Part shown: one piece after another, positions 6,771 to 38,541 of the stretch
How positions within the stretch are numbered: the stretch's first letter is position 1
Layout: each line of letters starts with the position of its first letter
Source: an uncultured Eubacteriales bacterium
GTDB taxonomy: Bacteria > Bacillota > Clostridia > Christensenellales > Aristaeellaceae
Assembly: GCA_902761825.1 (NCBI GenBank)
Contig: CACWLY010000012.1
Coordinates: 41,933-85,407, forward strand
Reading direction: 5' to 3'
DNA: 43,475 nt
Made by a program: the position numbers and the translations under genes
The notes under the pieces: model-generated
Database searches by the model: none
The model's input: only the letters and a program-made list of their open reading frames with translations
Told to the model about the DNA's origin: nothing

Positions 6771-6815
6771 AAAAGGGGCTGCTGCACGAAGAAAAAGCGC
6801 AGCAGCCCCCTTTTT
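6771..6815 (+). terminator. Intrinsic terminator of the GH2 gene
   Basis: An 11-bp GC-rich stem (GGGGCTGCTGC with GCAGCAGCCCC, A-rich loop) is preceded by AAAA and followed by TTTTT, 37 bases after the GH2 stop codon. The MITE-like repeat begins at the next base. Confidence 0.93.
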
Positions 6816-6951
6816 ATACTATTCTCAATCTAAAATCTTATCATCTTTGGGTGTCTTTTCCGTCTTGGCATTGCTTCATTCCGGTCAACGTAGCGCTGCT
6901 ACGCCTCCCTCCATTCAGCTTAGCCAGGGCGAAAAATCCATCCCAAATCTG
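6816..6951 (+). repeat. MITE-like element, truncated copy
   Basis: These 136 bases match, in opposite orientation, the right 136 bases of the complete 162-bp element at 37819-37980, with four differences counted by eye. The copy starts with the terminal repeat ATACTATTCTCA, contains the internal hairpin CGTAGC-GCT-GCTACG, and stops after AATCTG, so the distal terminal repeat is lost. It encodes no transposase. Open frames across it are side effects of its composition. Confidence 0.85.
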
Positions 6952-7015: not shown

Positions 7016-7054
7016 GCTCCAGGGCGGGCCAGCGAAGCTGGCCCGCCCTGGAGC
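7016..7054. repeat. Perfect 18-bp inverted repeat with a 3-base loop
   Basis: GCTCCAGGGCGGGCCAGC, loop GAA, then the exact complement. It has no T-run on either side, so it is not a classic terminator. It could be an mRNA-end stabiliser for the ftsK transcript or a REP-like element. Confidence 0.85.
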
Positions 7055-7142
7055 GGTGGCACATCCTATCCAACTGACAGCGGCAAGTTGCTTGTTCGAC
7101 AAGCTGCGCAGCAATCGCCGCAGCCGGGGTCCGGGGGCTTTG

Positions 7143-7230
7143 AGCGCCCGAAAAACCTTCCATTGGGATGGTAATCCTGGCCTTCGGCCAGCGCAAGCGA
7201 ACAGCGAAAAGCGGGCCGGAAGGCTCCGGA
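7143..7230. repeat. GC-rich hairpin repeat, copy B
   Basis: AGCGCCCGAAAAACCTTCC, hairpin closed by GGATGGT, then an inserted CTGGCC-TTC-GGCCAG hairpin, an AGCGAA box and GCGGGCCGGAAGGCTCCGGA. The outer parts agree with copies A, C and D; the central hairpin sequence agrees with A but differs from C and D. Confidence 0.6.
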
Positions 7231-34305: not shown

Positions 34306-35700
34306 TTATTTGCAGACATAGGTGAAAATCCGCTGCGCGAGGGGGGCGGCGATGTTGCCGCCCGTACCGCTGTCTGCCACGACGACGCAGACGGCGACGG
34401 GAACGGGGCCGTTTTCGACGAAGCCCACGAACCAGGCGTTGTCGTTTTTCTGCGTGTCGATCTCGGCTGTGCCGGTTTTGCCGCAGACGGTCAGCCCGCT
34501 CACCCGCGCGCTGCGCCCGGTGCCGGACTGCACCACGTCCTTCATATAGCTGCGAACGGTCTGCGCCACCTGCGTGGGCAGGGCGGTGCGGTAAGGAATG
34601 GCCTCAAAGGCCGCGCGGATGATGCCCGTGGGCGAAGTGGCCGACAGCAGCAGGCGGGGCTCCATCATCACGCCGTCGTTGGCGATGCCGGCGGCGATCA
34701 TGCACATATGCAGCGGGCTGATGCCCAGCTGGTGCTGGCCCGCGCCGGTCCAGGCCAGATCGGCTCCCTGCAGCGGCTGATCGCCGACGGAGAAGGCCGA
34801 GTTTTCGACTACCAGATCGCGGAACGTGAAATCGTCGCCGATGCCGAAGCTTTCGGCTGTGCGGCGCAGCGCTTCGTCGCCCATTTCCACGGCCAGCGAG
34901 GCGAACGTGCTGTTGCAGCTCTGCGCGAAGGCCTTGCGCAGCGAAAGCTCGCCGTGCGAGGTATCGCCGTAATCGCGCACGGTGCGCTTGCTGCCTTCAA
35001 AGCTCAGTTCGCCCTCGCAGGTAAACGTGCGCTCCTCGATATCCGGCATGCTTTGAAGGGCCGCGGCCAGCGTGACGATCTTGAACGTGCTGCCCGGCGC
35101 GCTGAGCCAGCGGGTAGCGCGGTTCAGCGACGGATTGACGCCCGGGTATACGGGCGACGCCGGATCGAACGTCGGGAAGGAGTTCATCGCGTAAATTTCG
35201 CCGGTCTTGTAATTCATGACCACGACCGCGCCGCTTTTTTCCGCGGGAAAGATGCTTTCGATATAGGCGGAAAGGCCGCTGTCCAGCGTCAGCATCAGGT
35301 CGTCGCCGCGCAATTCGCCGCGCATGCTCTGGTTGAAGCGCTCGAGAAAGGACATGTTCGCGCCGTACAGCGAATCGGCGAAAAAGGTTTCCACGGCGTT
35401 CTTGACCGATCCGCGCGCGTTGCCCAGCACATGCGCCAGCGCGCGGCGAAGCGTTTCGTCCCCGGAATAAATCCGCTCGCGGGTTTCGGGATCGGTGGAA
35501 GCCAGCAGCACGCCGCCGCGGTCGTAGATATTCCCGGCGATCACGCCGGATTTCATGCCGGTCAGGTACGTGTTGTATTCCGACGTGCGCCAGCGCGTTC
35601 CGTACCGGATCAGGCTGTATCCGCCGTAAAGCATGGGCAGCACTATCATGACGGAAAGCAGCAGCGCGCACAGGCGAATGGCATGCCGTAGCTGTTTCAT
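34306..35700 (-). CDS. Class B penicillin-binding protein (PbpA/FtsI-like transpeptidase)
   Basis: A 464-residue peptidoglycan transpeptidase. An N-terminal membrane helix (about 8-30) is followed by a short pedestal domain (GVIAGNIYDRGGVLLASTD) and the transpeptidase domain. The active-site motifs are STFK (S204-K207), SCN (261-263) and KTGTAE (K408). The protein is short because the N-terminal dimerisation domain is small, as in PbpA of the FHA-RodA-PbpA clusters of Actinobacteria and Clostridia. The start at 35700 is set by the ATGA overlap with the FtsW/RodA gene. Confidence 0.93.
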   Translation of the reverse strand: MKQLRHAIRLCALLLSVMIVLPMLYGGYSLIRYGTRWRTSEYNTYLTGMKSGVIAGNIYDRGGVLLASTDPETRERIYSGDETLRRALAHVLGNARGSVKNAVETFFADSLYGANMSFLERFNQSMRGELRGDDLMLTLDSGLSAYIESIFPAEKSGAVVVMNYKTGEIYAMNSFPTFDPASPVYPGVNPSLNRATRWLSAPGSTFKIVTLAAALQSMPDIEERTFTCEGELSFEGSKRTVRDYGDTSHGELSLRKAFAQSCNSTFASLAVEMGDEALRRTAESFGIGDDFTFRDLVVENSAFSVGDQPLQGADLAWTGAGQHQLGISPLHMCMIAAGIANDGVMMEPRLLLSATSPTGIIRAAFEAIPYRTALPTQVAQTVRSYMKDVVQSGTGRSARVSGLTVCGKTGTAEIDTQKNDNAWFVGFVENGPVPVAVCVVVADSGTGGNIAAPLAQRIFTYVCK

Positions 35701-36986
35701 GGCATATCCTCCCCGCCCTCGGCCAGCATGCGATCCTCCCGGAGGATGCGCTCGTTGCGGTTGGCTACGCCCTGCACCAGGCCCATGATGCCCATGCAGG
35801 ATACCAGCGAAGTGCCGCCGGCGCTGAGAAAGGGCACGGTGACGCCGGTCATGGGGATCATTTTGGTTATGCCGCCCAGGATCACAAAGGTCTGCACGGA
35901 CAGCAGCGCCGCGCCGCCCACGGCCAGCAGGGCGTGGAAGGCCGACGTGCTGCGCAGCGCGATATCGGCTGAGCGCAGCACGATCAGCGCGTATATCAGC
36001 AATACGATCAGCGAAAACACGAGGCCGAACTCGTTCATGACGGCGGAAAAAATGAAGTCCGTGCTGTATTCGGGAATGGTATTGGCGTTGCCAAGCCCCA
36101 GCCCTACGCCCCACCAGCCGCCGTTCGCCATGGCGATCAGGGCGTGCACCATCTGGTATCCGCCGCCCAGCTGATTATAGGTGGCGAACGGATCGATCCA
36201 GTTGCGGACGCGGTTCTGCACCGTCAGGAAAAAGCTGTCCTTGAACAGCATGTACAGCGCGGCCACCGTGCCTGCGCCCGCGCCTAAAAGACCCAGGATC
36301 AGAAGGATGCTGCTTGTGGCGGCGTACAGCGTCACCAGCGCGGTGCCGCAGTAAATCGCCGCCGTGCCCAGGTCGCGCTGAACGATCAGGAAAGCCAGCA
36401 TGACGCCGGTGAAGATCAGGGAAAACACGACCCGGCGGCGGGAAAGGAAGTATGCCAATATGATGACGTAGGCGATCTTTACGATCTCGCTGGGCTGCAT
36501 GCGGAAGCTGCCGGATACGACCCAGGCCGTCGCGCCGAGCCTCGCGTTGCCCGCGCGGAACAAGAACGGCAGCGCAAGCAGGCCGCAGCAGGCAGCGATC
36601 ATGGGCCAGACCAGCACGCGCCAGTGACGGACAAACCGAACGGCCAGGGCGCAGCTGATCATCGCTACCAGTCCGGCGGCGTAATTGAGGCATTGATTCA
36701 GGCCGCGGACGGGGCTGAAGCGGTACTGCATCAGCACGCCCAGGGCGCATAAAAAGTCGATCAGGCTCAGCAGCAGCCTGTCCATGGCGAACATGCGCGG
36801 AAGCAGGCGTTCCACCAGCCAGACGGCGGCGGGAACGGCGAACAGCATCACGCCGGTCAGCGGCGTCGGCTTTTGCAGCATCAGCAGCAGAAAGCCGCAG
36901 AACGAAAACAGCATGACCGTTCCGGTGATCAGCGCGTTTTCCCTGCCGCTGTTTTTATTTTTTGTGGCCTTCAGGGCGATGTTCAT
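35697..36986 (-). CDS. FtsW/RodA/SpoVE family peptidoglycan glycosyltransferase
   Basis: A 429-residue SEDS protein with about ten membrane segments. Family stretches include FRMQPSEIVKIAYVIILAYF, QRDLGTAAIYCGTALV and VPFLSAGGTSLVSCM. SEDS proteins polymerise lipid II together with a class B PBP, encoded next by ATGA overlap. The start at 36986 has AGGAGG 11 bases upstream and overlaps the stop of the FHA gene. Which of the division, elongation or sporulation roles it has cannot be decided. Confidence 0.93.
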   Translation of the reverse strand: MNIALKATKNKNSGRENALITGTVMLFSFCGFLLLMLQKPTPLTGVMLFAVPAAVWLVERLLPRMFAMDRLLLSLIDFLCALGVLMQYRFSPVRGLNQCLNYAAGLVAMISCALAVRFVRHWRVLVWPMIAACCGLLALPFLFRAGNARLGATAWVVSGSFRMQPSEIVKIAYVIILAYFLSRRRVVFSLIFTGVMLAFLIVQRDLGTAAIYCGTALVTLYAATSSILLILGLLGAGAGTVAALYMLFKDSFFLTVQNRVRNWIDPFATYNQLGGGYQMVHALIAMANGGWWGVGLGLGNANTIPEYSTDFIFSAVMNEFGLVFSLIVLLIYALIVLRSADIALRSTSAFHALLAVGGAALLSVQTFVILGGITKMIPMTGVTVPFLSAGGTSLVSCMGIMGLVQGVANRNERILREDRMLAEGGEDMP

Positions 36987-37801
36987 TTCTCTCGCCTCCT
37001 GTCGCTGCGGCGATGGCGCTGCTGCGCCGCGGCGGGGTTCTCCGCTGGATACGCGGGCGGGAAACCGTCGAAGCATGGCTCCGTTTCTTCTTCCTCCGGC
37101 TGCTTATCGTCCCCGGGCAGGAAGGCCGGGGAATCGCGATAGAACGCGGGCGGCGTTTCCGGAACCGCGGGGGCCTGGACGGTCCTGGGCGGCGCGGGCG
37201 GCAGGGGCTGATCCGAGGGCGCCAGATCGAACAGCGGTATTTCGCCGCTGTCGGGCAGGCTGCCCTGCGGATAAAAGCCCGCTGTCTGCGTGTCGCCGGG
37301 CGCGTAATACTCCTCCTCCGGCGCGGGCTGCCAATGCTCCTGGCAGAAGGAGGCTTCCGGCACGTCGAGCCCGGCGAACAGGCGGATGCGCAGCGTATGA
37401 ACGCCCACACTCAGCATTGCGCCATGCAGGGCGTAGGCGGGGCGGTTTAGGTCGCGTCCATCCAGCTGCGCCGCCGTGCGGCGGTGGCAGGGCGAAAGCA
37501 GGATGCCCTTGCCCGGCACGTACGAAAAAGCGACGTGACGGCGGCGCAGGCCCTTGAGGCGGATATCGCATCCGCGCCCGCTGCCCAGCACGCCTTCGCG
37601 GGGCAGGGGATAGCTTTTATCGGTTTCCAAATCCCGCATTTCGCCCACCATGCCGGCGTCGGGCAATTGCTTCAGCAGCTTTTTGCGGGCTCTGTGCTGG
37701 CTCAGAAGGCAGATCAGCGCGCGCAGCGCCACCAGCGCGGCCAGCGCGATAAAAAGGGCGCGCGCGGCCAGCGCCAACAGCTGATATAAATGCTCCGGCA
37801 T
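36983..37801 (-). CDS. FHA domain membrane protein
   Basis: 272 residues. One N-terminal membrane helix (about 10-35) precedes an FHA domain (about 50-145) with VLGSGRGCDIRLKGLRRRHV, the phosphothreonine-binding signature in slightly altered form. A long acidic, Pro-rich tail follows. FHA proteins in such clusters recruit Ser/Thr-kinase-phosphorylated division or wall-synthesis partners. ATG at 37801 is preferred: AAAAGGAGGG lies eight bases upstream; a GTG six bases earlier is possible. The ribosome binding site directly abuts the MITE-like repeat, so the element forms the 5' leader of the operon. Confidence 0.85.
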   Translation of the reverse strand: MPEHLYQLLALAARALFIALAALVALRALICLLSQHRARKKLLKQLPDAGMVGEMRDLETDKSYPLPREGVLGSGRGCDIRLKGLRRRHVAFSYVPGKGILLSPCHRRTAAQLDGRDLNRPAYALHGAMLSVGVHTLRIRLFAGLDVPEASFCQEHWQPAPEEEYYAPGDTQTAGFYPQGSLPDSGEIPLFDLAPSDQPLPPAPPRTVQAPAVPETPPAFYRDSPAFLPGDDKQPEEEETEPCFDGFPPAYPAENPAAAQQRHRRSDRRREK

Positions 37802-37818
37802 TTTCACGCCCTCCTTTT

Positions 37819-37980
37819 ATACTATTCTCAGTATAAAAGATTATCAGATTCGGGATGGATTTTTCGCCCTGGCTAAGCTGAATGGAGGGAGGCGTAGCAA
37901 CGCTACGTTGACCGGAATGAAGCAACGCCAAGACGGAAAAGACTCCCAAAGATGATAAGATTTTAGATTGAGAATAGTAT
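37819..37980 (-). repeat. MITE-like element, complete 162-bp copy
   Basis: It is bounded by perfect 12-bp terminal inverted repeats ATACTATTCTCA (37819-37830) and TGAGAATAGTAT (37969-37980). Imperfect pairing extends inward to about 37 bases. An internal hairpin CGTAGC-GTT-GCTACG is present. The other copy, at 6816-6951, is in the opposite orientation. No transposase is encoded; a trans-acting one is expected elsewhere. Target duplication is uncertain: both copies are preceded by a T-run, and TA or TTA flanks are possible. Confidence 0.85.
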
Positions 37981-37998
37981 TAAACGATTATTTGCAGG

Positions 37999-38037
37999 AA
38001 AAAGGGCGGGAACGGAAATTTGCCTCCATCCCTGCCC
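37999..38037 (-). terminator. Terminator of the divIVA unit
   Basis: Minus strand GGGCAGGGA (38037-38029) with TTCCCGCCC (38012-38004), one mismatch, then TTTTT. It lies 21 bases after the divIVA stop. Confidence 0.75.
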
Positions 38038-38058: not shown

Positions 38059-38541
38059 TCAGTCCAGTTCGGCCGCGTCCAGCCTGGCGCGCAGCTCGTC
38101 CATCAGTTCGATGATCCTGTCGCGGTAGGCGCGCGCGTTCTGATGCATATCGTTCACCTGCTGCTCCAGCGCCGCCTTTTCCTCCGACAGGCCGTCGCCC
38201 GCGGTATCCTTGGCCTTGGCGATGATCGCTGCGGCTTCTTCCCGGGCCTGGGCAATGGTCTCGTCATACAGACGCTGGGCGTTTGCCATCAGCTTCTGCG
38301 CGCTTTCGGAGACGTCCTGCGCTGCGGCGGGGGCGGGAGCCGGACGCTGGGGCGCGGGCTGCACATAGGCCATATCGCGCTTGGTCTGCGCCAGCTGGGC
38401 CTGCAGGCGGGCGATCTCCTCCTGCATCACGATCATCTCGTCGCAGATTTCGTCCAGAAATTCATCCACTTCCACAGGATCGTAACCGCGTACTTTGGTT
38501 TTGAATTCCTTTTCTTCGATCATCGGCACAGTGATAGGCAT
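38059..38541 (-). CDS. DivIVA domain protein
   Basis: A 160-residue coiled-coil protein. The N-terminal membrane-binding head has IEEKEFKTKVRGYDPVEVDE followed by FLDEICDEM, and a coiled coil follows. A Pro/Ala/Gln linker (about 60-76) separates a second, longer coiled coil. DivIVA senses negative membrane curvature at the poles and septum. It is 18 bases after the sepF stop. Confidence 0.93.
   Translation of the reverse strand: MPITVPMIEEKEFKTKVRGYDPVEVDEFLDEICDEMIVMQEEIARLQAQLAQTKRDMAYVQPAPQRPAPAPAAAQDVSESAQKLMANAQRLYDETIAQAREEAAAIIAKAKDTAGDGLSEEKAALEQQVNDMHQNARAYRDRIIELMDELRARLDAAELD

Follow-up and report, generated by a model that had tools for sequence, protein, structure and literature searches.

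Several families of small bacterial repeats and transposons offer models for the element described here. The RUP, Correia and ERIC families duplicate a TA target, REPs are not known to make a target duplication and are mobilised by Y1 transposases, and PIF/Harbinger-like elements (DDE_Tnp_4) use a 3-bp target of the TWA type. RUP of Streptococcus pneumoniae, Correia of Neisseria and ERIC are short, non-coding and intergenic, with inverted ends and a target duplication (PMC3049150, PMC10969869). The pneumococcal BOX, RUP and SPRITE repeats form consensus hairpins with pair-preserving changes and are enriched between convergent genes (PMC3049150), and the REP elements associated with RAYT transposases are high-copy extragenic palindromes (PMC2817692). 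Among insertion sequences, the IS1031 subgroup of the IS5 family generates a 3-bp target duplication of the form TNA (PMC12016507).

We analysed an element located upstream of a cell-wall operon in the window (the whole 43,475-nt stretch of DNA under study) from a genome referred to here as G000 (2.87 Mb, 178 contigs, 87% complete). It is short and lacks a transposase gene, carries terminal inverted repeats, is bordered by a target duplication, and occurs as dispersed near-identical copies for which empty sites also exist, which are features of a miniature inverted-repeat transposable element (MITE). We are confident that it is a non-autonomous DNA transposon of this kind, that its conserved folded core is under selection, and that it marks a rearranged junction. 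In contrast to RUP, Correia and ERIC, its target is TNA with a variable N instead of TA, its sequence is unrelated, and, when species are compared, its ends are less conserved than its inner core. It resembles the same families in being present in about 100 or more copies and in being folded when transcribed (PMC3049150, PMC10969869). The BOX, RUP and SPRITE repeats belong to one species, whereas here a single core is shared by many genera, and its ends differ. The REP/RAYT model fails on the absence of a target duplication, since the element has one. The target of PIF/Harbinger-like elements is of a comparable 3-bp type, and the TNA duplication is the same as that of IS1031; however, a published GA-type end of the IS1031 type, GAACCTGTCTAGTATCT, does not match TACTATTCTCA. 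Our literature search on repeats of such kind in the rumen or in Christensenellales returned nothing relevant.

Boundaries, copies and mobility of the element

The copies were aligned together with their flanks, and the exact element was defined by the positions where similarity stops (Table 1). The first-pass annotation had proposed a MITE-like element of 162 bp with 12-bp perfect terminal repeats. Its mobile nature stands, while the length is corrected to the 160 bp that lie between directly adjoining TTA duplications. The terminal repeat is also real, but the element itself accounts for only 11 bp of this perfect inverted repeat, the outer A/T being part of the target duplication. The element is non-coding and too short to accommodate a transposase gene. 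With its surroundings it forms an imperfect palindrome (37812-37987), with 80% complementarity between its 44-nt arms (37812-37855 and 37944-37987).

Table 1. Features of the element and its gene neighbourhood in the window
Feature	Position	Strand	Remarks
MITE copy 1	37820..37979	+ (A strand on +)	160 bp, terminal inverted repeats TACTATTCTCA / TGAGAATAGTA
MITE copy 2	6812..6951	- (A strand on -)	without one end; 3' of two converging genes
Target-site duplication TTA, left	37817..37819	.	identical TNA on both sides in 21/21 intact own-genome copies
Target-site duplication TTA, right	37980..37982	.	same TNA test
Conserved hairpin core, about 90 nt	37857..37946	+	tandem G.A mismatches GG[GA]GGCGTAGC..GCTACGTT[GA]CC; covariance model R1
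FHA-like gene, first of downstream operon	36983..37807	-	FHA by eye; kept in 10/11 genus genomes; native promoter absent in window
FtsW/RodA/SpoVE-type gene	35697..37076	-	PF01098; reading frame as listed
Penicillin-binding transpeptidase gene	34306..36114	-	PF00905; reading frame as listed
divIVA-like gene, upstream	38059..38541	-	Pfam DivIVA; before mscS-type gene in six sister genomes
Intrinsic-terminator-like hairpin after divIVA	38002..38032	-	between divIVA and element

An identical TNA flanks the element on both sides in all 21 intact copies tested from its own genome (TTA in 8, TAA in 7, TCA in 5 and TGA in 1), as compared with 6.6 such copies expected and 15 in the best of 20,000 permutations. 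In other species the flanking TNA is identical for 22 of 26 elements. The 12-bp end, for which a genome search had been suggested, occurs as ATACTATTCTCA 293 times in G000 (177 forward, 116 reverse), while the reversed control sequence does not occur at all. The 177 forward-strand matches therefore correspond to at least 177 element sites in the genome; at least about 40 copies, with 82-100% identity, were scored by BLAST. The second copy noted about 31 kb away with few changes is indeed present in the window, agreeing at 135 of 140 bases.

To find empty sites, we joined the flanks of elements and looked for copies of the surrounding repeat in which the element is absent. Such element-free paralogous sites were found in place of the sister-strain sites proposed earlier, each with a single TNA-like target (L025 versus L227, with TTA; L017 versus window positions 7027-7227; L103 versus L097). 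Together with the TNA duplications and the dispersed sites, they confirm a MITE-like mobile element. The window stretch 7016-7227 is itself an unrelated dispersed repeat that starts with an 18-bp perfect inverted repeat (7016-7054), and other genomic copies of this repeat carry the MITE.

We propose that the element would be moved in trans by a DDE-type transposase acting on its TACTA...TAGTA ends. The expected transposase with matching ends was not found among the fetched loci, the IS5-type loci or the fragmented, 87% complete G000 assembly. In a search of 11 genus genomes, the same assembly contained no IS5/IS1031 transposase domains (DDE_Tnp_1, PF01609; DUF4096, PF13340) and no PIF/Harbinger-like DDE_Tnp_4 (PF13359). 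The PF01609 loci of other genus genomes were rejected as partners, having no TACTA ends. Long elements with the same ends were also considered as autonomous partners, and the only two among the fetched loci, L120 and L091, carry no transposase. L120 (3417-4679) measures 1,260 bp and has TAA duplications, TACTA-type ends, the full core and a complete 287-aa passenger gene that looks acetyltransferase-like by eye and has no Pfam match; judging from its structure, MITE ends may move a passenger gene in this case.

Partial copies also occur in G000. Among the listed places, interior elements with one end only keep the left end in 17 cases ('+') and the right end in 2 ('-') in contig coordinates (p 7e-4), and the loss falls on the right side of the contig regardless of the direction of the element. 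Because the direction in which a contig is written has no biological meaning, most truncated copies and length variants of this assembly are best read as scaffolding artefacts, and on the same grounds we rejected the size variants as biological subfamilies. The second window copy is probably one such case, since its absent end lies on the side of the contig where the assembly loses ends. Runs of N were observed at the same spot in G000 contigs (for example, L066 and L068). Elements of this kind distort metagenome assemblies in a strand-biased manner, and this recognisable artefact could mislead repeat studies.

The junction between divIVA and the FHA-like gene

The identities of the FtsW, penicillin-binding and DivIVA proteins are confirmed by Pfam, while the FHA-like gene has no Pfam match at E<0.001 and was labelled by inspection. 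The first-pass annotation described the edge of the element as touching the ribosome-binding site of the FHA-FtsW-PBP operon; this edge and the GGAGG of that gene are 5 nt apart. We correct the accompanying view, in which the insertion took the place of the native leader or divided it, on the basis of the left flank and of the gene order and promoters of related genomes. In the reading direction, the sequence to the left of the element comes from the divIVA terminator region and not from upstream of the FHA-like gene, and the ribosome-binding region of the latter lies on the other side. The divIVA gene was found in 9 of the 11 genus genomes and is followed by an mscS-type gene (a label that comes from reading the translated sequence) in G001, G002, G003, G004, G005 and G007. 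In the sister genomes the FHA-like gene has other upstream neighbours, never adjoins divIVA and has its own promoter, TTTTGC...TATGnTATACTG, which is kept in 8 of 8 genomes about 25-50 nt before the ribosome-binding site and is missing at the window site. Because of the divIVA-mscS order elsewhere and the missing native promoter, we place the element at a divIVA/FHA-like rearrangement breakpoint, unless the junction is misassembled. A close mscS gene, which would mark the reciprocal junction, was sought in G000 and not found.

As to the origin of this junction, we give an even chance to insertion of the element into an already rearranged divIVA-FHA region, rather than recombination between two MITEs. 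The identical TTA on both sides is certain under insertion and would arise about three times in ten under recombination of two copies, and thus mildly favours the former. On the other hand, insertion requires that the operon was without its own promoter beforehand, and no such intermediate was seen. Misassembly across the repeat is an unlikely source of the divIVA/MITE/FHA-like arrangement. The assembly clearly mis-joins at elements, as indicated by the strand-biased truncations and N runs, and the gene order is unlike that in all sister genomes; however, this full-length copy has three private base differences at distances of about 32-53 nt (less than 60), and so it can be assembled uniquely.

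Scoring for sigma-70-like promoters detected none in the element, the only -10-like word being TATACT in its end. The element may act as an operon leader or promoter. With the native promoter absent, it would now constitute the whole leader of the FHA-like/FtsW/PBP operon, and expression would depend either on read-through from divIVA or on the TATACT-containing end. If so, a repeat at a gene-order breakpoint can become the entire leader of a cell-wall operon.

The folded core, its distribution and orientation

Both strands of the element, in which an internal hairpin had been noted earlier, fold strongly as RNA, with energies of -68.2 and -59.5 kcal/mol (z-scores of -9.5 and -8.9, respectively); as DNA, one strand folds with almost the same energy as the other. 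A hairpin of 60 pairs is common to 14 elements from different genomes, and compensatory changes were observed at 25 of these pairs. For the inner 90 nt, aligned for 27 sequences with three end types, 95.3% of the cells are paired, with 71 double-change cells as compared with 19 after shuffling and a covariation of 0.317 versus 0.156 (reached in 0 of 500 shuffles). When the core alignment is slid, pairing falls to 39-48%. In a strand-neutral self-alignment, the A strand (the plus strand of the window) has 294 purine-purine versus 21 pyrimidine-pyrimidine mismatches, and 92 G-T versus 38 A-C mismatches. Covariation, strand asymmetry and the tandem G.A mismatches at the conserved centre point to selection acting on a single strand in its folded form, either RNA or DNA. 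A covariance-model search of the described Rfam families gave no match to the element, even at E<=5.

A pattern scan identified at least 64 stretches with the core, nearly all of them in metagenome genomes of ruminant-gut Clostridia, and the host is a probable gut bacterium. Since the scan selected on the centre of the core, part of the core conservation in those loci reflects search bias; the search with model R1 and the BLAST matches in sister genomes are less biased. Within the order, model R1 matches 22 of 248 genomes, representing 14 of 116 genera, and several of these genomes carry 15 or more copies. Elsewhere in the phylum, it matches 5 of 397 genomes (E down to 7e-8). The ends around the same core differ and include TACTATTCTCA, TACTAAACTCAAGC, TACTATTTCTCGTC, TACTAAATACC, TACTAAGTCAAA and TACTAAAATCTGA, as well as the further types TTAAGGCAACACC and GATGCTCACACAAGG. 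Five loci (L034, L038, L099, L083, L105) combine the core with quite different ends (TTAAGGCAACACCGCACAAT, TTAAGGAAACGCTGATTTAAT) and possibly have TTAA or TA targets.

In most MITEs, conservation would be expected mainly at the ends, which the transposase needs. Here the interior lasts and the ends are exchanged, which makes the existence of a selected folded module in small bacterial repeats testable. Across genera, compensatory changes preserve the inner core, and the outer arms and ends are variable; we infer from this that the fold is under selection, which suggests that the core has a function. Tentatively, and at somewhat less than an even chance, we view the folded core of about 90 nt as a mobile structured RNA or single-stranded DNA module that persists in different genera of the phylum whichever transposon ends accompany it (TNA-TACTA, TTAAGG and GATGCTCAC ends). 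Selection would maintain it for a function of its own, different transposases would carry it, and its insertion would follow a chromosome-level orientation. Our best guess is that single-stranded folding would be selected either as DNA during replication or excision, or as RNA when the element is read through.

The elements lie at convergent gene pairs in 23 of 33 cases, as compared with 26 of 151 ordinary gaps, and never at divergent ones, in a set of loci partly chosen for convergence; the first, less selected set comprised 20 convergent, 14 tandem and no divergent sites. Neighbouring elements point in the same direction in 36 of 42 pairs (p 3e-6), independent of gene direction. At 29 of 36 sites, among them 21 of the 23 convergent ones, G is depleted on the A strand (negative GC skew); the respective bias in other species is not significant (28 versus 19). 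The long same-direction blocks in G000 are compatible with insertion coupled to replication or with survival that depends on orientation. A strict rule by which genes always read the B strand held at 37 of 37 sites at first and was abandoned after longer flanks revealed five A-sense tandem sites; with the B strand in sense at 14 tandem sites and the A strand at 5, it is a bias only.

In one possible, though not probable, reading, a functional RNA such as a 3'-UTR or leader element makes up the core and is carried by transposon ends, and selection acts on the transcript. This reading accords with the strong covariation, in which one strand has G-U and tandem G.A pairs, and with the presence of the core with at least three unrelated end types. 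However, the elements do not keep one sense relative to genes, most sites are convergent, the better-folding strand is the one less often read at tandem sites, and no Rfam match was found. Alternatively, the core could be a single-stranded DNA structure (a hairpin or cruciform) that is recognised by a shared factor and is required for transposition or replication-coupled excision, with ends supplied by different transposases. We hold this, too, as a possibility well short of even, consistent with a fold that is kept while the ends change and with the chromosome-level orientation blocks in the own genome, and set against a 3-bp duplication that points to a double-strand DDE mechanism and nearly equal DNA folding energies of both strands. 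A fixed, non-mobile structural RNA, which the first-pass annotation would have seen in a single occurrence at orthologous sites, accords with the strong fold and is scarcely credible in view of the target duplications, copy number and empty sites.

Carriage by phages or plasmids was rejected, as searches of plasmids and viral contigs gave no match and a single weak phage record was found; in this metagenomic phage record (MT837947.1, 4755-4840), half of the element is matched at 75.6%. Finally, one locus from another family of the order (L176, 1342-1750; genome G015, with at least 15 copies) contains three tandem diverged core hairpins at a spacing of 159 bp.
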